Source: Isoetes taiwanensis
Taxonomy: Eukaryota > Streptophyta > Lycopodiopsida > Isoetales > Isoetaceae
Length of the DNA stretch: 64,000 nucleotides
Reading direction: 5' to 3'
Assembly: GCA_021234155.1 (NCBI GenBank)
Contig: JAJEKV010000105.1
Span: 2,482,968-2,546,967, forward strand
Within the stretch, counting starts at the first letter, position 1. Each line of letters begins with the position of its first letter. Shown piece by piece: positions 13,389 to 56,605 of this stretch. Under the pieces are notes generated by a model that was given only the letters and a program-made list of their open reading frames with translations, was not told the origin of the DNA and made no database searches. The position numbers and the translations under genes are program-made.

Positions 13389-14795
13389 GCATGTGCTCTC
13401 TCTCTCTCTCCCTCTCTCTCTCTCTCTCTTCTTATTCCTCTCTTCTCTTCTCCTCTCTTTCCCTTCTTCTTTCCTGCCCATTCTCCCTCCCTCTCTCTCC
13501 CCCTTTCTTTTATTTCTGTCATCTTCAATGTACTGGCTTCTATTAGTCTAATCTATCACTTCTCCCTCTCCCTCTCCTCTCTCTTCTCTCTCTCTCTCTC
13601 TCTTCTTCCTCTTCTTTCTCCTCTCTTCCTCGATTCTCCTTCTCTCTTTTTCTCTCTCTCTTCCTTCTCCTCTCTGTTTCCTCTCTCCCCTTCTCCTCTT
13701 TTTTCTGTCCTTCTTTCTATCTCCTTTTCTCCATTGCTTCTCCTTTCTTCTTTTCCCCTCTCCTCCCTCTCTTTCTCTCCTTCCTCTCATTTCTCTCCTC
13801 CTCTCCTTCTTCGGCTTGTTGCCTCCTCGGCCGGCCTCGGGCTGATTAGACCCTAATATCTTTTGACCGAGTCTCTTCCCTTTCTCTCTCTCCCTTCTCT
13901 CTACTTATTCTCTCTTCTCCTCTCTCTTTCTATTCTCTCTATTCTTTTTCTTTTCTTTTCCTCTTCTCTTTTTTCTTCTCATTTCTCCTCATTTTCTCTC
14001 CTATTTATCTTCTCTCTCCTTAATCTTCTCCTTTCTCTCTTTTTTCGATTTTCTCTCTCTCTTTCTCTCTCTCTCCCTCTCTCTCTCTCTCTTCGAACTC
14101 TTTTCTCTCTTCCCTCTCCCTCCCCTTCTCCCCTCTCTCCTCATTTCCTATCTCTATCCTCCCTTTCTTCTTTTTTCTTTTTATTCTCTCTCTTTCTTCT
14201 CTCCTCCCTCCTGTTCTTATATCCCTCTCTTTTTCTCTCCTTTCTCTCACCCTCCTGGTCCCTTCTCTCTATTCCTCTCTTTCTCATCTCCCTTCTCTCT
14301 CTCCCTCTCTCTCTCCTCTCCTCTTCCCCGTGATCTCTCTATCATCTCTTCTCTCCCTCCTCCCTCCCTCCCTCTTTCTCCTTCTCTCTCTTTCCCCTCT
14401 TCTCTCTCCCTCTCTCTCTCCCTCTCTTCCTCTCTTTCTCTCTCTCTCTCCTTTCTCTCTCTTCTCTCTCCCTCCCTTTCCTCTCTCTCTTCTCTCTCTT
14501 TTCTCTCTTCTCTCTCCTCCCTCTCTCATCTCTCTCCTCTCTCCGGCCTCTTCTCTCCTCCCCCTCTTCTCTCTCTACTCTATTCTCTCTCTCTCTTCTC
14601 TCTATCTCCCTTCTTCCTCCCTCTCTCCTCCTCTCTCTTCTTCCCTCTCTCTCTCCTCTCCTCTCTCTATTCCCTCCATCTCTCTCATCTCTCTTCTCCC
14701 TCCTCCTCTCTCTCTCCTCTTCTTTTCCCCTCTCTCTCTCCCTGGCTCTCTTCTTTCCCTCTCTCCTCTCCCTCCTCTTCTCTCCCTCTCCTCAT
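13389..14795. repeat. ~1.4 kb polypyrimidine (CT-rich) tract
   Basis: The plus strand is almost purely C and T for about 1.4 kb, mostly (CT)n mixed with CCT, TTC and TTTC runs. The main interruptions are short patches near 13,540-13,560 and 13,812-13,870. It opens long Ser/Leu frames on the plus strand and Arg/Glu frames on the minus strand, which are compositional only. Such homopurine-homopyrimidine tracts can form triplex (H-DNA) and are difficult to assemble, so the length is approximate. Confidence 0.9.
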
Positions 14796-14969
14796 GAGTA
14801 GCACACCACACCACGCCCCTCACACACGCCCCCATACACATCTACTCACCCTACTACCACCCTCCTAAAGTATGTCAATTCTAAAGTATCACCCTATGTG
14901 AAGTTTACACACACCTATCATACTCCATCACACTTCTTACTTCATCAACTCCAGCATCACCTCCTGCAT

Positions 14970-15475
14970 TCTATTTGAGATTTCTTGTAATGTTTCAAAG
15001 GAAACTTTCTACTTTTAGACTGAGGTGCTTCTAGAGCATAGATGGTTGCCCTATAGCATCCTGGAATATTTTGTTTGAGTTTTACAAAGTTTAAGAAAAC
15101 CCTATTTTTAAAACCGGAATCCTCTATTTTTAGGACTGAGGTGTACCCATGAGCATCCTGAACATTCCAAATCACATTCTATTTTGAGATTTGCAAAGTT
15201 TCAAAAAACTTTCTATTTTGACCGAGGTGCTTACTCCATGAGCATCCTGAACATTCCACCACATTCTATTTTGAGCATTTGCAGTTTCAAAAACTTTCTA
15301 TTTTTAGACCTGAACTTCTATTTTTAGACTGAGATGCTTACCCATGAGCATCCCCGGAACATTTCACAACATTCCCATTTTAGCATTTGCAAAGTTTCAA
15401 AAAACTTCATTTTTAGATCAAACTTTCATTTCTGTAATTTTCAAGGTCCTTACTCATGAGTATCCGAACATTTTA
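14970..15475. repeat. Degenerate tandem repeats of ~100 bp
   Basis: At least four or five diverged monomers share the ordered words TTTGCAAAGTTTCAAAAAAC, CTATTTTTAGACTGAGGTGC, TACCCATGAGCATCCTG and AACATTCCACAACATTC. The GAGCATCC word recurs near 15,056, 15,152, 15,240, 15,343 and 15,458. No coding function is apparent. Confidence 0.75.
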
Positions 15476-45988: not shown

Positions 45989-46298
45989 ACTTAATGGCTG
46001 GGCGAATTACCAGATTCAACTAACAACAAGAAGAACATGAAGGATGGCTTCGTGATTTGAAACCTGAAAAATTCAGGATTGACGTAACTCCCTTTATCCT
46101 TTGATGTATTTCAAACCAACTAACAACTTCCCCTCATGTATGACCTCGAGCCCCTCTATAAAGGGTGAACAATCTCCCCATTCCTCCGCTTGACTAATTG
46201 GGTGTTCTCACTCATCCGGAAGGGTTATTCGAGGCCCTAACATAAAAAGGAATGTTGATGGGTAATGTAGTCGATTTAGGAGTGTAGAATTAATCGCT

Positions 46299-47207
46299 TC
46301 ATTTATTTATTTTGTCAGGATCGATCTAGCAATGTTCTATATTTTGTTGGAAGTCTTCATAAGACCTCGAATAGCAAAGACCTCCACCCAATCGTGATTT
46401 AGTTCCCATTGTTTGGAGCACGCCTTCATTTCAATCAAACATCCCGCATGGCTAGGCAAAGATCAACTGTGCATATGTAATGGTACACATTGGGGCCATG
46501 CATTGGTCTTCTTCACTTATGGATTCAAAATACATGTAGACTTCATTTTCCAACCCTTACATGACTGCGATGCAAGAAGAATTTTTACTTCATGGATGAC
46601 AAGATTCCTTTAACTCCTTTTCACAGATATCCTCAAGGCATTTTCCAGCTTATCCGAGAATTGCCACGCTCTACAAACCCGCAATCATTGCACCCCATGA
46701 GTTCACGCTAAGATTTGGCACTTAACAAATACCTCAGATGCTTCCACATTTGGCATACATGTCAACAAGCCGCGACTTCCAAAGCATATCCGATTCAAAT
46801 TGACTAGTGATAACTGCTCATGTACCAACCTTCCCCGGATTAAAGCCTCCCCGATTGGCACAACCTTCGAGATGCCTAGAAGGCTGGTAACTTTATCTCA
46901 TTGCACCATCTTGACACATCTCCCTAAAAACTTCTAGTGCGCAAGGGAGACTCCGTCTAAACCGAGCATATGCAAAGAATCATCATAGTCCAAGATACCG
47001 TGATCCCGATTCCCCGCGAATGCCTCAAAACTATATGAGCTTCCAATGGCTACCACACTTTAGCATACATTTCAATGAGGCCGCCTCCAAGAACAAACAC
47101 CGCCACAAGTCCAATATTGGTCATCCGCTTCATGGATCACCCTACCTTGGGTTAGGGGTCTAACTTCAATTGACATGCTATCGATGCCGGTTCGCCGCCT
47201 CCGGTGG
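46299..47207 (-). pseudogene. PPR unit 17, 3' part, interrupted by insertion
   Basis: This is the C-terminal ~48% of unit 17, with its stop at 46,299-46,301. Similarity ends at about 47,207 within CCTCCGGTGGTA (family word CCTCGTGGTGCAATACC) and resumes at 55,602 with GGTGCAATACC. The break lies about 15 bp from the equivalent insertion point in unit 6. Confidence 0.82.
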
Positions 47208-47280
47208 TAACAAGTAGTTAAAAATTAAACGAGGTTAAAAAGACTCCCGCTTCAAAGATTCCTTTAGAAAAAGCACTCGA
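47208..47280 (+). repeat. Left terminal inverted repeat
   Basis: ACAA, ATTAAACGAGG and TCAAAGATTCCTTT appear in this order from the left junction and correspond to the right end on the opposite strand. The pairing is imperfect, with small gaps. Confidence 0.6.
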
Positions 47281-48189
47281 GACTTCCTCGTAAATTGGGC
47301 TTTTTAAGAAAGGTTCAAAGTTTCGTGAGGTACGGCTTTTTTGGCCCGCTTTTTGGGGCACTTTGACAGGACTTGGTTTTAGAGCGCTACTAATAAAATA
47401 GTTGCATTTGAGACATGAGCACGCATTCATTAGAGGTCGATGTACAAAAACCACAAATTTAGTAAACATAATAATAAATAACTACCATCGGGTTTTGTGT
47501 TATATCAATAATGGCCAATAATGGCAATAATAATATGCTTCGAATCAAGAGCTACAAATAAAAACTACGTGAGATCTAAATTAAAAATCTTCTTCATTCT
47601 TCTTTACGCTTCCAAATTTGACCAGCTTAACGCTTTCACCTTCTCGGTGACTTAGGCTTTTCTCGTGCGTTGGTGGTCAGCTTCGTATTGTAGCTAGAGC
47701 AACTTCTTTCACCGCAAAATGTAGCTTCGCCTTCCAAAGAGTCAGAAAAGGAGGTCAGATCTCCGAAGATGTCATCTTAGCAAAATCGAAAGTTAGACCG
47801 CCCCAACTCTTGATTCTCGCCTGTAGAGTTGGTAAGGCGTAAAGTCTCATCTTTGATGAACTCGTGATGTACCCTTTGTCAATGTCAACAAATACACAAT
47901 TACGCCTCTTCTTAAGTGCACAAGCACAGTTGTACCGAGCCGCAGTGAACGCTGGCCATTAATTCCAATCTCCCCGGACGTGAGAACATGTCCGGCGATG
48001 GTTAATAAGTTTCGCGGGCTTCCTTTGCAGTGACTCACTATTCTCCCTGTGCACTAGGGTCCCTCGCGTAACTTCTCAGAATAGCCTGGAAACTCCAACA
48101 CGCTTTGAAAAGTTCGCATGTCATTGTTGAAGTGTTCCATTGTACGCTTTCTCTATCAAACTCCAATAAGCCACGGAAGATATTCAACC

Positions 48190-49010
48190 TTACTTAGTAG
48201 GCGGGCCTCCACCATGGTAATTAATATTTGTTTTGTACCTAAGGAAATTAAAAATAAAGAAGGGTTTAAGTCTGAGATAAAAGAAACGTATTCGAATAGA
48301 AACTCCCAAAAAGAATTTAAAAATGCTACATTTGTAACTAACAAAGAAAACAAAGGTAAGGAAAACAAAAGGACTTGTGTATTCGAATAAGTGCTTACCA
48401 AACCAGATTTTCATAACCAACAGGCGGCGAACCAGAAGTGATTCTTGAAGTCGGGCTTCCACAAGACCGGATTGCATGCTTGAGTGAAATACAACCACCT
48501 CAATGTTTTGTCAGAATCTGCTTTATGCCGTCGGCGAAAGCGTTAAACTCGAGTTTTAAATGGCTGGTCGTCGTGGCGGTGTCTTTCGACTTAAACCCAT
48601 ATGGAAGGTCGGCTACTACCAAGGTAAAATCTTGGGGCTTTATTGATTCGGTTAATTTGGTGCAATCACCGTGTACAATAGAGAAGAGGTTATTTTGATC
48701 GAACATTGTAAACCTCTCGTAGTCGGAGGGCTCAGAATCCAGAACACGCCTGTCCGCCAGCGTCCTCTCTTCTCGTGCTGTCCTTACCAAGTGCATGAAG
48801 CCCTCCGGCAGGTCTTTGTTTTTCTTTTTGCTCTGCAAAAAAGAGCGTCTTAGTAACAAGAAAAACAACAATATAAAAAACAAATCAACATACCCAGCCT
48901 TCAAAATTTGGCGCATACTGCACAATCCTTTCGTCTGAGGTTGCGATAGGATAAAGCTCCTTGCACCTTTCCCAGCTGTCAACATTTAATTGCTCCATTA
49001 AGCAGGTTTG
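48190..49010 (-). CDS. DLPYG-motif methyltransferase-like protein with a 61-nt intron (partial model)
   Basis: Minus strand. Exon 1 includes WERCKELYPIATSDERIVQY then APNFEGW. A GT-AG intron follows (48,893 down to 48,833, starting GTATGTTG and ending TTTTTTGCAG, with TTACTAAGA as a possible branch site). Exon 2 continues in frame as SKKKNKDLPEGFMHLVRTAR and, further on, NNLFSIVHGDCTK, FTLVVADLPYGFKSKD and LEFNAFADGIKQIL. GDC..L followed by LVVADLPYG resembles the (D/N)PP(Y/F) catalytic loop of class I amino-methyltransferases, where the usual word is DPPY; Leu replaces the first Pro. Beyond ILTKH the likely continuation (VVVFHSSMQSGLVEARLQES) is in another frame, which means an indel or a second intron. 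It may methylate DNA; the substrate is unknown. Confidence 0.5.
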
Positions 49011-49108
49011 ACATGTGATGACATTTTTAAATTTGTAAGACCACACAAATGTTAGAAGAAAAAACTAATAACAAAAGCAACAAAAAGATCTACTAAAAAT
49101 CGAAAGCC

Positions 49109-49340
49109 GAAGTGTATTCGGAATACACTTTGGCTTTTCGGGTGTAACAAAGTGTATTCGGAATACACTTTGGCTCTAACGATTGCCAAAGTGTATTCCG
49201 GAATACACTTTGGCTTTCGTGTGGGAGCCTAAGTGTATTCTGGAATACACCTTGTCTCCCACGTGAGGACCAAAGTGTATTCCAGAATACACTTTGGCTC
49301 ACACACGAAAGCCAAAGTCTATTCTGGAATACACTTTGTA
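49109..49340. repeat. Palindrome array 1 (six hairpin units)
   Basis: There are six copies of a palindrome with core GTGTATTCCGGAATACAC or a one-base variant, extended by AAA/TTT arms. They start near 49,109, 49,148, 49,186, 49,229, 49,271 and 49,311. Spacers are ~12-18 bp. In several units the outer arms also pair: AAAGCC with GGCTTT in unit 1, GCC with GGC in unit 3 and GGGAG with CTCCC in unit 4. A diverged half-unit follows near 49,357. Confidence 0.85.
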
Positions 49341-49724
49341 TGTCGCGTGCAAGCCAGCGTTTTTCAAACTACACTTGTCCCTACCAAACAAGAACCCAAA
49401 GTGGCATTCTTACTTGTGGAGCTCCTTGGACATTTCTTCGAGAGTAAATTCTTTATCGACAACCTTTTGCAGTAGCCTTGCTAATATATCCATATCTGTG
49501 AAGCCCCTGCATTTTCGCCACCACGTTTGATTGTCATTTCCTTTTTTGGGGACGCCGGATCCTTTTTCTTTTTGGAGACCTTGCCTTTGCTTTTCAAATC
49601 ACCATTTCGAACATGGTGAATATTTCGTTTTGGAGGTCCCAAACTGGAGAGAAGAAAGCAATATCGATTGGGAGGCTTTGGGGGTATTCGAATACAAAAA
49701 CAACTTACTCGCCATCTCTGAAGG

Positions 49725-50090
49725 CTAATTTGGAACCGGTTGTCGTGTGGTATTAGAGACCCGCCGTTTGTTAGCTAAAATTCGTATTTTAGGTGACACT
49801 CCCGAAAGACACGCTTCCTTTAGTTCCAATGAGTATTGTGGCTTCTTCAAATCTTCTCCATATTTTTCTTTAAATATCATATATTCCCGCGTGCATGAAC
49901 TGATTTTGTCCACAAAGCTCATTTTCAAACTTATATTAGATTGTCGTCGGATTGTGTGTGTTGGCAACGATTTTGGCTTCCTCGCCTCGCCGGGCCCAAA
50001 ATGCAGACCGCGAAACGGAGAGATATCTTGGGTTTTTTTCTTTTGTACAAACTGTCTCCTTGCTTTGAAACGTGGTTTCCCCAAGGACAT
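49725..50090 (-). CDS. Unassigned minus-strand frame in the 8.4 kb element
   Basis: This 121-residue open frame lies between the two palindrome arrays. It reads KEKYGEDLKKPQYSLELKEA, SGVSPKIRILANKRRVSNTT and other basic stretches. I do not recognise a family. It is on the same strand as the methyltransferase-like gene and ~750 bp upstream of it, so it could be an upstream exon or a separate gene. A competing frame (49,931-50,185) overlaps its start, so the true boundaries are unclear. Confidence 0.3.
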   Translation of the reverse strand: MSLGKPRFKARRQFVQKKKTQDISPFRGLHFGPGEARKPKSLPTHTIRRQSNISLKMSFVDKISSCTREYMIFKEKYGEDLKKPQYSLELKEACLSGVSPKIRILANKRRVSNTTRQPVPN

Positions 50091-50687
50091 AGTGCATGTA
50101 AGTTATGCGCATTTTTCTCTGTCGTAGTCCTTGGGGTCCATGCGTGTTCTGTCAACAAGAACAACAATTGGAGCAACATGGGCATTGGGGTTGCTCCTTA
50201 TTAAATCCTTCAAATTTCTTAAATGGTCAAGCATAGATTTTTCGAACTTGAAGGGGCTCACCCGACTTCATTCTTCGGTGGCAACCTCATTGAGGTTCTT
50301 GGCAAGTATATTACCCCTTGAACATACTTGTTGAGATTTATTTGTTCCATCCTCTCGAGGTCTTATCCACCTTTTTTTTCTTTAATGGCCACTCCGGAGC
50401 CTTGCCCTTTCCCTTCTTCGTTTTGGTTGTTCCTCGGTGATTTCAAAGAACAACAATCTCCTGTACCTTCCGCTTCTTTGGTTCTTTAGCGACTATCGTT
50501 TGCCTTGGCACCGCTAAGTTTTTTTTTGATGCGGGGGTTCTTCCTTGTCTTGTTCCTCGGAACCTTTATCGATGACCTCCCCGAAGAACTAGCGATGTAG
50601 GTGGTGATTGTGACCTTTCTTCATCGATTGCTTTCGGACTCACCGATGGGGAAAGTCACCGCTTGTCTTTGGAACAAACACGCTTAA

Positions 50688-51220
50688 TTAATGAACACAG
50701 GGCTTCGTTTTAGCCGGTAGTGTGAAAAGAAATTGTCTGATCTTTGGTGGTTGCACATTGACAATTTTAAAGAATGCGATGTCCACAATAATAAAGCCTT
50801 GGGAGGTCTTGAAGGAAAGCCTCCCCACACGCCCTCCTTGTCCCAAGCAACATCGGGAGACATCTTTTATTGTCCCAAGGTTGACAAACTTCGAGTCGGC
50901 GTGCACCTTTTGTTACCCGACCATTTTCTGGGACGTACAGAAACGTCGGTGTCTTTGTATTTTCCATCTGCACCCTGGTCACGAACCCGCTGCGTTTGAA
51001 AATTCTCGTAAATAGCGGGCTCGCGTCTGTGTCGGCCGGTGTGCCGAGGGTGTGGGCGCTTAGGCTTGTGAGATTTCTTTGGCGCCCTCTTGCTTCCTTC
51101 TTCCCCGCTTGAAGCGTTGAAAACTACCTTGTTAAGACTGGAATTCAAACGAAAGTTGTATTCCAGAATAACATTTACTAAACTTGTGCCCTGAAGCCCA
51201 GGAAAAAGACAGGAAAACAA
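50688..51220 (-). CDS. Unassigned minus-strand coding-like region in the 8.4 kb element
   Basis: Two overlapping frames carry protein-like text: 50,867-51,220 (VNVILEYNFRLNSSLNKVVF, then a basic KRAPKKSHKPKRPHPR stretch) and 50,688-50,906 (FVNLGTIKDVSRCCLG, FIIVDIAFFKIVNVQPPK). They may be parts of one gene joined by splicing or a frame error. The Lys/Arg-rich block could be a nuclear localisation signal. The family was not recognised. Confidence 0.3.
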
Positions 51221-51360
51221 GCTAAAATATTGTCACTCTAAGTCATGTTTTTGTGCCTTAATTGGACTCGCAAGTGTTATTTTTAACCTAAAAAATGGTA
51301 TGTTGCAGCTAAAAAGTGTGTCATCTTAGTGCAAAAAAGCAAGCGTTCTAAAAATTACAA

Positions 51361-51643
51361 GCAAAGTGTATTCCGGAATACACTTTGCTTACTGGCCAAG
51401 TGCAAGGTGTATTCCGGAATATACACTTTGCCCTTCGGGCGAAGAGCAAAGTGTATTCGGAATACACTTTGCTCTCGGGCGAAGGGCAAAGTGTATTAGG
51501 AATACACTTTGCTCTTCGACCGAAGAAGGGCAAAAAGTGTATTCGAATACACTTTGCCCTTCGCCGATGAGCAAAGTGTATTCGAATACACTTTGCTCTT
51601 TTCGCCAGAGATGGGCAAAAGTGTATTCGGAATACACTTGGCC
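51361..51643. repeat. Palindrome array 2 (seven hairpin units)
   Basis: Seven copies of the same palindrome core as array 1 are spaced ~40 bp apart. The flanking arms alternate and usually pair within a unit: AAGC with GCTT in unit 1, GAGC with GCTC in units 3 and 6, GAAGGGC with GCCCTTC in unit 5, GGGC with GCCC in unit 7. Units 2 and 4 do not pair perfectly. Degenerate relatives lie downstream (GTGTATACGGAAT near 51,891, TATTCGAATAG near 51,944). Confidence 0.87.
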
Positions 51644-52019
51644 CTCTGAAAACAAATCGAGAAAACAAAAGAAAAGGCGTACTATGTACTTTACATGCTT
51701 ACTGTCCATTATTTTCGCTATGTAAATCGGAATACAAACAAATGTATATTGATCGGGAAGGTTTCGCCGACGACTAAATCTCTGGAAGCTGAATACGCGA
51801 ATCGATTTCGAATTGTCCTTTTTAAAGGTAGGCCACTGTCGGTTGTTTTTTCTATGTGATGCGGAATACGTCTTGTCCAAACACGGATAAGTGTATACGG
51901 AATAGCATCTTTGCACACACCACGGCAAATCGCACACAAAATACTATTCGAATAGCAATTGTATTCTCGAATATCATTAGTCCAATCGACTTGTGAGTTA
52001 GTAACAAGCCCACCATTTT

Positions 52020-55000
52020 TTGCAGTTGTTTGACATGGTTAACCGCTTCGTGAACAAACTTCCACCACCATTTGTTTGCCCAAGTACCTCTACGCCGGAT
52101 GGAACACAAGGCGGAGATGCTTCTTCAACACCTACCTCGACAAGGTCTTTGTTGCTTCTCGAAGACACTCCGAGTCCAGTAACTAGTAGACTGCCACCAC
52201 CTTTCCAGCCCTCTCCAAGTCCAGTAGGAAACCGGCTGCCACCACCTTTCCAACCCTCACCTGTTGCACGTAGCACAACCATTTGTACCATCCCCGACAC
52301 TACAATGGCTCGACCTCAACAAATTTTTGAACGGACTACCTCCGCGTTTGTTGTTTCTCCATCTTCACTTACACATGCCAAGAATACAAAGACGCGTTCA
52401 AGAGGCTGCGAGATTCTCCATCGTTTCTCCCATCACGATTTCACTACAAATGAAGAGGCGACCCTGCGGCATCTACTCCTCTTCACACAAGCGTGGTGAC
52501 ACATGGGTTTGCGAAATTTCGATCTGCTCTAAAGAGATATGTTTGATCGAACTCCCGTGAAGGCGGCTTCAACAACTTTACCGGCACATCATATTTGGCC
52601 CATCTCCTTCATTCAACACTGCACCTCCGCCTTATCAGGTGCGACTTCCGTGGTTTGTTCTCCTCTACAAGCACACCACTAAGAGCGAGAGGAGGTCACC
52701 CCAGTAGAACTCTCTTGAGGAAGATGAAGACACCAACGGCGCAACGAGATTACACGTTCTCTAGCCAGTCCACCAAGAAATTCAAGGTGGATTATAGTTT
52801 GAGAGCATGCTCCTCCTCAGAAGAAGAAGAAACCTTATGGGCCGAGCATAAAATGAGAAGACTTTTAAGAAGTAAATGCTGCTCATTGGGTTGTATCAAC
52901 AAATTGAACATGTCTAAATTACGAGCAATTAGAGACAACTTCTGAGTTCAATGACATTGGCTGACAGAATGCCTACTTGGCCTATCATGTAAGGCGGACC
53001 GCCTTAACACCTTCTTGCACTACATTAACCGTCAAGAAGTTTGCGAAAATGCTTTATGGTTGTCCACCGTTTAGGGTCCACGAGAATGTCTAGAATACAC
53101 AAAAGGCGGACAAAAATCCAGCAATTGATGATCATTGTGGACCAAGAAGAGTTGTAACCATGCATGCCCGCTTTCTTTGTGTCATGGATGGAGAAATATT
53201 TTAGAGAAACATGTGAGAAGCCGCCTAATAGCAACATGTATCATTTAAGCGATAACATCACCAAAAAGATGTTTTTAATGAGTACAAAGAGACTTGCACT
53301 TTCGGCTTCAAAGACATCTCTTACTCACACTTCACCGATTGTGGAAAAGTGAATTCGGGTTTAGTGAAAATTCGAGGAGACACAGAATGTCTGTTTTGCT
53401 CAAGGTGTGCGAGAATTAAAAGTCAAAGAGAAACTGCAAAGACAGAGGTCGAAAGAAGTAAGCTCATGTTCTTCAATCTCTCACTTGTTTTAAAAAAAAA
53501 ATGCTTTGACCTTATTTCTTCTACGATATTATTGCAAGAACCTTGCGGACATCGTGAACAACAAGCAAGCAGAGAGAAGAAAGCTTGCCAAAGACAGAAA
53601 AAAAAGCTCTTGAGCGTCCTTTGCAATATATATGCCGTTGTGATTGATGGAATGGAAAAAAAACTACTCTACCACATTTCTTGAACATTCCTAAAGATGT
53701 GCGGAGGAATGTTTTGTTGAGGTCCACCTTGTAGGAGCTATGGTCTTCAAAGGAAGTCTAAAGTGCAAAGTATTTTTGGCGTATCAAACTTGCATGGTGA
53801 CCGAACCTCACAATTACAATTCTTAACAAGGTCCCAATGCGAGCAAAAGCAAGAATTACCGCCCGATGCTTTTATCCGCAACTTGACAATACTACAAGGG
53901 AGAACAAGAATCAAACACTCTTTGCGTCTTGTGCCATGTTAGTGGAGCTAGGGAACCTTAGAAAAGTGAAGCTCGGTTTCTTACTTGTAGGACACACTCA
54001 TGATCAGATTGACCAAATGTTCAGCAGATTTTCTGTGCGCCTTAGAAGGAAGAAGGCTTTCTGTCTTCCTTCTTTAGTTCAAATTATTGAAGATTCTTAC
54101 ACTCCTACTCCAAATTGGTCGATCTTCTTAAAGAGGCTGCTGATTTCGAGAGTTTATTTTCTCTCAACGTTCAAAGCAGAGAACAAGGCGTGAACAAGTT
54201 GAATGATCTTACCTTTCAACATCATATCAAGTTCTACTTGAAGGATGGCCAAAGCTTCTTACAGGGGAAGAAGTATACCACAACTAAGGACTGGAGTCCA
54301 CCAGAGGGATTACGCTTCCTTAAATATATTCCAGACACTTCCATCATAGAGCGTCTTTGAGCAACTTCCTCTCAAAAATCCTAAGGAGTCCAAGCGTAAA
54401 GAAAAGTACCCCAGAGTCATCCTTAAAAGCCATTGAAAATGGAATTTCCTCGAGGCTTTAAGTACTTCTTAGAAGAAGATGGGATGTGGTGGAGTAATTT
54501 CTTTTCGAACAGAAAATTGTTGTACAAAACATAGCTCTAAGGCAGTTGCAAGAACCATTTCAATGGCCTAACACCTTCCATCAACTGAAAGACAAAGCAG
54601 GTCCAAGCGGTGCTACATTTGCACCCTCTGGTAGAAGGCGAGGAGGACCGAGTCATGTACCCTCGGACCAAGACGCAGGGAATGAGCCTCAAGGTAATAT
54701 CACGAGAAATTACCAAGGGTATGCTAATTGCTCTTCCAGCCCGGGGAGGATGACAAAGGTCGACCTTTCTGGATAGCAAAAGTGCTTGACACAGTCAAGG
54801 AGGAAGGCTTAGTCACTAAACTCAAGATCCATTGGCTTGCAACACGCTCAGAAAATGCTTTTGAAGGTAGATATGAGTTAGAAATGAGAAGCCAAGGAAA
54901 AGGGAGAAAGTCCAAGAAGGTGGGTTGTAGGGATGAGCTGATCCTTAATGACGTGACTATATTGTGCTATGATTTTAAATTGAAATCTGACAATCGTCTA

Positions 55001-55225
55001 CGCCAGAGGACTATCAATTTGCTTAAAAAAGCTTGTAATTACGAAGAAGAGGATGAAGAAGGTGGTGGCAATGCTACACCATCTGTTGATAGTGATGAGG
55101 AAGATAACTCAAGCACTTCCTCTAGTGACAGTGAAAGAAGTGAAGGTGATGAGGATGGCATAAATGAACATGATGACGTCCTGGATCCTTCCTTCATCAC
55201 TCCTCATACTTTTGCACATAACTGA
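52020..55225 (+). pseudogene. DUF7869-like transposon protein, frame-disrupted
   Basis: The N-terminus (52,020-52,499) is Pro/Ser/Thr-rich with repeated SRLPPPFQPSPSP-type words. A Cys segment, KCCSLGCINKL, and an acidic SSSEEEE patch follow at 52,595-52,945. Next come MEKYFRETCEKPPNSNMYHL (53,164-53,352) and ECLFCSRCARIKSQRETAKT (53,349-53,684), where Cys pairs suggest metal binding. The core reads QLDNTTRENKNQTLFASCAM and GFLLVGHTHDQIDQMFSRFS (53,837-54,193). QLDNTTRENKN plus GHTHDxIDxxFS is the signature I know from DUF7869 proteins, often transposon-borne; the D/N and HTHD-ID residues may be catalytic. The C-terminus (54,728-55,225) has GRPFWIAKVLD, then an acidic Ser-rich tail. At least four frame changes separate the parts; some could be introns. 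Confidence 0.65.
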
Positions 55226-55519
55226 GTCTTAGAAAAAGACTGTAAATTTTGCATGTGAATATGAAGATTCTATCTTCAAATTTTGAGAATACTACAGTTT
55301 CAGTTACGGACTAACTTCAATTTTTTGTTAAATATTTTATCCTCTGAAATTAGGGTTTCTCTCGTAAAATATACTTCAACAACATTCTATTTGCTAAGAA
55401 AAATGACACTTTAAAAAAGTCAATTCTTTCGTTGCACAAAAAAATTAGTCACTTTTGGGGGGGTCAAAATAGAATTTCATGCATTTTTTTTTTTTTTTAA
55501 CCTCATTTTACCCCCTTTT

Positions 55520-55601
55520 TGTAAAAAAAAAAAGGAATCTTTGAGGAATATTCCTTTCGCTCTCGTTTCGATGATTTGCTCCCGTTTAATACGCAACTTT
55601 G
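55520..55601 (-). repeat. Right terminal inverted repeat
   Basis: Read on the minus strand from the junction, it gives ACAAAGTTGCG, TATTAAACGGGAG and TCAAAGATTCCTTT, matching the left end. Long A and T homopolymers nearby (55,488-55,498 and 55,523-55,534) make its inner limit uncertain. Confidence 0.6.
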
Positions 55602-56605
55602 TTTGGTGCAATACCTACATATTGCATTTCTTCAAAACGTTTTAGGACGGAGACATTATCCCCATGCTGTGCATACGCTTTGACCATGATATCCCACATC
55701 ATAGCATCCTCGTTATGCGATTTGTTAAATAATTTTATTGCCTTATCCATGCACCCACATTTTCCATACATACCAACAAGAATATTACGTATCATAACAT
55801 CGAGCTCTAAACCAGCTCGAACAATCTGGCCATGGACTAGCCTACCCTGCTGTACAAAACACACAATGTTGCGTGCTCTTATGATACTGAAAAATGTGAT
55901 TTTTCCTGGCATTATACCCTCCAGCTACATTCTGATATACAGGTTTATCGCAAAAAAGCCATGCCCATGCTAGATATATGCATCAATCATTGAACTCCAT
56001 GAAATGACATTGAGAGTTCCCAAATTTTCAAACACGCTGTGTGCTTATTCCAGCGCTCCACATTTGGCATACATGTAAACCAGGGAGTTTCCAACAGCAA
56101 CATCCAAATCAAGCCAATTATTGGTTTAATGACTATGTATTAGCCTCCCCTCTTGGACAGCTGCTGAGACAGCACATGCTTTAAGTAAAGCACTATAAAT
56201 ATATTCATTACTTCCAACACCTGAAAGATACAGTTTATGGTTTAAGTCAAGGACTGTTCCACTTTCTCCTAAATTTGCGTTGGCAGATATTACTGAATTC
56301 CATGTGCAAATACTTGGAATCCTAATGTTACAAAATACCTGATTTGCCTCCAGCAAACTTCCAGTATACGAAAAAAGATGGATGAGAACATTGTTCAGGG
56401 CTGCAACATAAGCAATACCACTATACAACATAAGTGATTGAACTCGTCTACCACAGGAGGCATCAATTCTTTTAATGCAGCTTTCCAAGAGGCAGTATGC
56501 GTCATTCCTGGAAACAGAGATACCATTGTGGATCATAGATTCTGCGGCATAGATTGCTTCATCTGATCATCCTCTCCGACATAAATTTTCCAGAGATACT
56601 GTCAT
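55602..56605 (-). pseudogene. PPR unit 17, 5' part: best preserved PPR sequence
   Basis: This is the N-terminal half of a PLS-type PPR protein and the cleanest PPR text in the window. Frame 56,126-56,536 reads LLESCIKRIDAS, VQSLMLYSGIAYVAALNNVL, then PSICTWNSVISANANLGESG and GSNEYIYSALLKACAVSAAV. Frame 55,586-55,912 reads ARNIVCFVQQGRLVHGQIVR, LVGMYGKCGCMDKAIKLFN, DAMMWDIMVKAYAQHGDNVS and RFEEMQYVGIAPNKVAY. Between them, after small shifts, come VGNSLVYMYAKCG and VISWSSMIDAYVGMGMAF. These are successive 35-residue PPR motifs, which bind one RNA base each. The presumed ATG is at 56,603-56,605. With the 3' part the protein would be ~640 residues and end in an E1-like segment without a DYW domain. 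Family members act in chloroplasts or mitochondria; no targeting peptide could be confirmed. Confidence 0.88.

Follow-up and report, generated by a model that had tools for sequence, protein, structure and literature searches.

An 8.4-kb DUF7869 DNA transposon carrying a putative ParB-like/DNA methyltransferase fusion gene and clade-specific palindrome arrays

Introduction

Sola elements are transposons of the DDD type with 4-bp target-site duplications, inverted ends of 11-1124 bp and sizes mostly of 2-9 kb; they are known from the moss Physcomitrella and are uncommon in flowering plants (PMC10741241). Members of the Sola2 group have ends of 12-21 bp and AT-rich 4-bp duplications, and they carry passenger genes (PMC3627910). 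Mutator-like VANDAL transposons encode the anti-silencing protein VANC, whose short binding motifs form arrays within introns and upstream regions; units of these arrays are gained, lost and altered in concert, and the arrays vary from family to family (PMC5735166).

DNA-modifying enzymes are already known in transposons, namely TET/JBP enzymes in fungi and methylases in virus-borne Mariner elements. A Dam-like methylase is carried by DIRS retrotransposons. The virus-borne Mariner-2_PGv and Mariner-1_OLpv encode a methyltransferase (PMC3627910), and fungal KDZ and other transposons carry a TET/JBP dioxygenase proposed to counter silencing (PMC12730594). Whether a transposon can mark its own DNA and so evade silencing by its host is an open question, for which few model systems exist.

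Here we analyse an element found in a 64-kb stretch of Isoetes taiwanensis DNA (hereafter the window), and its relatives in the eukaryotic genome of 1.66 Gb that we searched. The best reading of the element, compared with Sola by description only, is a Sola-like transposon with a 4-bp duplication and a D-D-D motif. The window also contains about 1.4 kb of TC-rich low-complexity sequence (13396-14868) and a 108-bp tandem repeat of slightly more than two units (15206-15473).

Results

An insertion flanked by 4-bp target duplications

Positions 47209-55603 form an insertion of 8,395 bp, a DNA transposon lying between TGGT direct repeats. The 8.4-kb insertion proposed in an initial annotation of the window is thus borne out, with coordinates that lay within 2 bp of these limits. 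Its boundaries are the following:

47205-47208: left target-site duplication TGGT, with a second copy at 55604-55607
47209-47235, plus strand: left terminal inverted repeat AACAAGTAGTTAAAAATTAAACGAGG, diverged from the family's AACAAGGTTGCAAATTAAACGGGAG; copies elsewhere start here
55579-55603, minus strand: right terminal inverted repeat, reverse complement AACAAAGTTGCGTATTAAACGGGAG; copies elsewhere stop here
55604-55607: right target-site duplication TGGT, paired with 47205-47208

The ends are imperfect inverted repeats of about 25 bp (AACAAGGTTGCAAATTAAACGGGAG at the left of other copies, AACAAAGTTGCGTATTAAACGGGAG at the right). Inverted ends had been recognised in the initial annotation, but the true ones (AACAAGTAGTTAAAAATTAAACGAGG and AACAAAGTTGCGTATTAAACGGGAG) are longer than those it gave. 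Genome-wide, left-end matches began mostly at query positions 108-110 and otherwise at 144-148, while right-end matches mostly stopped at 604-606. All ten full copies checked, with both ends determined, were flanked by a 4-bp duplication: TGGT in the window, TACT in L021, TAGT in L025, TTTC in L026, TGAT in L028, TCTC in L029, TCTT in L030, TATT in L031, AATT in L053 and AATG in L054, the last two being less independent since their ends were located by a joint criterion of inverted ends and duplication. Full copies measured 8.0-8.4 kb and a single shorter copy 5.6 kb.

The element had been described as splitting a PPR unit. PPR sequence (PF13041), which points to a land plant, is indeed found on the right flank, with further PPR-like stretches on the left, but the target is now a PPR pseudogene, which either was one before the insertion or has decayed since. 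Joining the flanks (46000-47204 and 55608-56570) yields PPR-type sequence in which every frame is interrupted by stops.

An abundant family with a dead copy in the window

The genome-wide search for copies with the same ends found them together with their target duplications, identifying a multi-copy DNA transposon. Rough first-look counts gave 1,646 right-end candidates and 9,910 candidates of the DUF7869 family; the family is very abundant, with DUF7869 matches in the thousands. The window copy is dead and decayed, the longest frame inside the insertion being at most 184 aa, and long open frames are retained in other copies (987 aa in L052, for example). One layout was common to all sub-families sampled across the full gene region, with a DUF7869 gene on the plus strand and a divergent ParB-methylase gene on the minus strand; few full copies were sampled per clade, clade B being a single copy.

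Aligned with L021-L031, the insertion showed 93-100% identity across the last 600 bp, but values as low as 57-75% were reached, according to the pair, in portions of the ParB/promoter block or of the left end. These uneven, pair-specific patterns suggest modular recombination among sub-families. A very young age of the window copy, considered on the basis of 97-99% right-end identity, was rejected: this identity is partly a selection bias, because most copies were chosen by their right-end match and identity drops toward the left end.

The plus-strand gene encodes a DUF7869 protein

The following features were delimited on the plus strand:

52035-55225, plus strand: gene of the DUF7869 protein, probable transposase, with several frame breaks in the window copy; open over 987 aa in L052
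53642-54112, plus strand: DUF7869 domain with candidate catalytic D residues (VIDGMD, QLDNT, GHTHDQID); from PF25273 and invariant columns
54746-55036, plus strand: C-terminal BAH-like domain KGMLIALPTEEDDKGRPFWIAKVLD; from Foldseek BAH matches (probability at most 0.96, E 0.36) with a low-confidence model

The DUF7869 assignment was confirmed by PF25273, with E = 1.7e-33 for the broken window frame and 4.4e-51 for L052, and the motifs QLDNTTRENKN and GHTHDQIDQ are both there. VVIDGMD, LYLQLDNT and GFLLVGHTHDQID, segments ending in acidic residues, are invariant or nearly so across sub-families. Such conserved D segments are expected of a D-D-D transposase and are putatively catalytic. The AlphaFold model of the protein was poor (pLDDT 46, 35-row alignment); a Foldseek search with it gave nothing usable for the core and only non-significant BAH matches for the tail, and a direct search of DUF7869 against solved structures returned no match. 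The best Foldseek matches of the tail include DNMT1 BAH1, EBS, AIPP3 and BAHCC1, none of them significant by E-value. BAH domains are chromatin readers. The most economical interpretation is that the DUF7869 protein is the transposase, and we consider this highly probable.

A predicted ParB-like/methyltransferase fusion gene on the minus strand

The divergent gene was reconstructed as follows:

47584-50909, minus strand: predicted ParB-like/DNA methyltransferase fusion gene, decayed, upstream start not located; from exon-by-exon match to better-preserved relatives
49718-50416, minus strand: exon 1, ParB-like domain (LGGNHSFKAR...TDEEAK); from TIGR03764, DUF6551 and hhalign
49416-49641, minus strand: exon 2, linker, with end ...EEMSKELH and splice donor GTAAGA; from match to relatives
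48894-49028, minus strand: exon 3; from match to relatives
48398-48829, minus strand: exon 4, methyltransferase motif IV (DLPYG); from match to relatives
47800-48234, minus strand: exon 5, region of SAM-binding motif I (LDAFSGSGTT in better-preserved relatives); from PF01555

This gene had been called methyltransferase-like on account of its DLPYG loop. In L054, a better-preserved relative, it does match a DNA methyltransferase family (PF01555, E = 2.1e-17), but its product is more than a methylase, with a ParB-like domain fused to it. The methylase part matched type II MTases with E = 3.5e-22, its best solved relative being CcrM, and its motif IV (DLPYG/DIPYG) lies upstream of motif I (LDAFSGSGTT). 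The usual motif IV is DPPY or NPPY. In the copies read it is D-L/I-P-Y (D-I-P-C in one) and not the canonical (D/N/S)PP(Y/F/W); because of this atypical motif, methylase activity is not certain. To judge from its sequence, the product is a bacterial-type N6/N4 DNA amino-methyltransferase, with the features of the beta class except the canonical motif IV.

The ParB-like frame matched the ParB family TIGR03764 with E = 6e-4 and DUF6551, which we take to be ParB-like, with E = 1.4e-3, scores that lie below every curated cut-off. When plasmids were searched by tblastn with the ParB-like protein (E up to 10), 9 of the 11 matches were annotated 'ParB family protein', and hhalign against those plasmid proteins gave a probability of 88-90% and E of about 2e-6, compared to a best E of 0.035 in ten column shuffles. 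Phage records gave no match at E 1 and only unannotated, chance-level ones at E 10, and PHROGs only one match, weak and unnamed. The AlphaFold model was poor (pLDDT 36, 15-row alignment). The ParB-like assignment is thus a remote one, suggested by lines of evidence that are weak singly and concordant together.

L053 and L055, which share about 45-55% protein identity (about 55% in the ParB core), have GT-AG introns of identical phases (0, 2, 0) where readable in both, and the next junction has phase 2 in L055 and L054. These conserved introns and phases connect the exon of the ParB-like domain with those of the methylase, making a single spliced gene. The middle minus-strand frame, considered as a separate gene, was rejected since the intron phases tie it to the methylase.

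Linkage of the two genes and selection on their products

Co-occurrence of methylase and DUF7869 genes was checked in other copies: among the best 150 DUF7869 and the best 150 PF01555 places, 24 pairs lay at most 20 kb apart versus about 0.5 expected by chance. Eighteen of these pairs were in opposite orientation and 4.9-6.2 kb apart, the same as in the window. The ParB-like frame formed 15 pairs with DUF7869, 14 in opposite orientation. Between sub-families, the non-synonymous/synonymous ratio was 0.02 for the DUF7869 core and 0.1-0.43 for the methylase, and pN/pS was 0.07-0.35 for ParB, values obtained with synonymous sites saturated in most comparisons. All domains are under purifying selection.

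Palindrome arrays differ between clades

Two arrays lie within the element:

49110-49340: palindrome array 1, six units AAGTGTATTC(CG)GAATACACTT with a period of about 42 bp, in intron 2 of the ParB-methylase gene
51364-51641: palindrome array 2, seven units with a period of about 42 bp, between the two divergent genes

The arrays noticed initially proved real: 13 palindromes (AAGTGTATTC(C)GGAATACACTT and variants) form two clusters, with none elsewhere in the 64 kb. The intronic site of one array, like the BAH-like tail, the ParB-like domain and the ParB-methylase fusion, is absent from the initial annotation. The arrays are located 1.9-4.4 kb from the left end and none is subterminal. The 42-bp spacing corresponds to four DNA helical turns, and the spacers CTTCGGGCGAAG are partly palindromic too. 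Exact 20-bp palindromes of clade A numbered 1,925 genome-wide and palindrome pairs of clade C 2,507, against 0 with the reversed control pattern in each case.

The palindrome reads GTATTCCGGAATAC in clade A, GTATGAATTCATAC in clade B (L055) and GTATAAATTTATAC in clade C (L056, L057, L058). All three are 14 bp long with a constant frame GTAT-NNNNNN-ATAC, and their cores are TCCGGA, GAATTC and AAATTT. The arrays of all three clades recur at two corresponding kinds of site, one being the promoter region shared by the divergent genes and the other an intron within the ParB-methylase gene. This intron is intron 2 in the window and intron 1 in clade B, in L053 and in clade C, where placement was judged by position relative to exon 1 only. 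It seems that the intronic array was acquired or relocated independently, always inside the ParB-methylase gene.

Clades B and C share 67-69% ParB identity and differ by one base per half-site; A shares about 55% with either of them and differs by three bases per half-site. The palindrome core is wholly different between A and C. Between A and B the DUF7869 core is 74% identical and the ParB core 55%. Across three clades, B being one copy, this pattern fits a putative co-evolution of the palindrome core with the ParB sequence; shared ancestry could also explain it.

Discussion

The explanation that we favour is a cut-and-paste DNA transposon whose ParB-methylase acts on its own arrays, and we give it an even chance. 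The DUF7869 protein would be a D-D-D transposase, and the ParB-like half of the fusion would bind the palindromes of its own clade, as ParB/Noc proteins do at palindromic sites. The methyltransferase half would modify adenines, or less likely N4 of cytosines, in or near the element. Such self-recognition of copies could keep their expression against host silencing, or could autoregulate the divergent promoters. That the ParB-methylase recognises the arrays is predicted with the odds evenly balanced, and that it methylates element DNA with a confidence just short of even. Action of the methylase on the element, already suggested in the initial annotation, is plausible; the fusion to a ParB-like domain and the clade-to-clade variation of the arrays, both read from sequence, strengthen it. 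We propose only tentatively that the purpose would be escape from silencing rather than simple autoregulation. Bacteria-derived self-marking, in which a ParB-like clamp would load at parS-like arrays, deliver adenine or N4-cytosine methylation and override silencing while protein and core co-evolve, seems unlikely.

Ordinary autoregulation, in which the ParB-methylase would bind the palindromes to control its own promoter and that of the transposase, agrees with an array placed exactly within the divergent promoter region and with the fact that operator sites are typically palindromes. Methylation would then be incidental, or would set a copy-number-dependent repression instead of an escape from silencing. 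However, neither the second array, retained by every one of the three clades in intron 1 or intron 2, nor the purifying selection on the catalytic methylase domain is explained in this way, and we hold this proposal to be improbable. The arrays could also serve the DUF7869 transposase as assembly or enhancer sites, the ParB-methylase being a separate passenger: transposases often bind repeated motifs and the DUF7869 gene adjoins one array. Their position 1.9-4.4 kb inside the element, none being subterminal, argues against this, as does the complete difference in palindrome core between clades A and C, when it is the ParB core (55%, A-B) and not the DUF7869 core (74%) that has diverged more; we judge these sites quite improbable.

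As for the nature of the element, the description of Sola (DDD transposase, 4-bp duplications, inverted ends, a size of 2-9 kb, presence in Physcomitrella; PMC10741241) and that of Sola2 (short ends, AT-rich 4-bp duplications, passenger genes; PMC3627910) speak for an already catalogued Sola family transposon with an unremarkable passenger gene. Yet DUF7869 is not mentioned in the literature searched, nor was a ParB-methylase passenger found there, and we give this possibility very little weight. The candidate undescribed group of the initial annotation is nevertheless not established, since the duplications, short inverted ends, size and D-D-D motif are those of the Sola description (PMC10741241, PMC3627910). 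A viral or proviral origin was rejected: no viral structural gene was seen and there is no viral match, and the ends and duplications are transposon-like. A pattern-based screen of viral contigs detected relatives of neither the DUF7869 core nor the methylase.

Should bacteria-derived self-marking be true, plant transposons would possess a second sequence-specific system against silencing, one that evolved independently and writes a DNA mark that is otherwise not standard in plants. The element could also be relevant to reports of plant 6mA and 4mC, and it illustrates the uptake of a bacterial-type ParB-methylase by a transposon of a eukaryote. DUF7869, a domain of unknown function, gains a functional context. 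With its abundance, co-occurring methylase and clade-specific palindromes, the element offers natural protein/site variants for swap experiments.

The element resembles Sola by its 4-bp duplications (10/10), short inverted ends (about 25 bp), large size (8.0-8.4 kb) and D-D-D candidates, by its occurrence in non-flowering plants and by the capture of passenger genes. It differs in that no Sola with a ParB-methylase and palindrome arrays was found in the literature searched, which also gave nothing comparable to a ParB or adenine-methylase passenger in transposons. It shares with KDZ transposons bearing TET/JBP enzymes the association of a transposon with a DNA-modifying enzyme, but there 5mC is removed or oxidised and the transposases are different, with no ParB or arrays seen in the text consulted; Pfam scans of the element's frames detected no TET/JBP dioxygenase gene. 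Mariner-2_PGv, Mariner-1_OLpv and DIRS are likewise mobile elements encoding a DNA methyltransferase, whereas their transposase or recombinase and their methylase family are others. We know of no ParB fusion or palindrome arrays in these methylase-bearing elements. PF01555 and a motif IV placed before motif I recall the bacterial and phage beta-class enzyme CcrM, and the N-terminal GGN-type pattern recalls plasmid ParB, but here the two are joined in a eukaryotic spliced fusion within a transposon, and identity is about 22-30% across most of the domain. With VANDAL the element shares a self-encoded regulator and arrays of short motifs in introns and upstream regions, the motif differing between related families. 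VANC itself has DUF1985/DUF287, no methylase, and is unrelated to the proteins of this element; Mutators have 7-12 bp duplications, and the VANC motif is not reported as a palindrome. Pfam scans of the element detected neither a VANC-type protein (DUF1985/DUF287) nor a Mutator transposase. VANC is the closest working analogy, by likeness of proposed mechanism and not by homology or membership.
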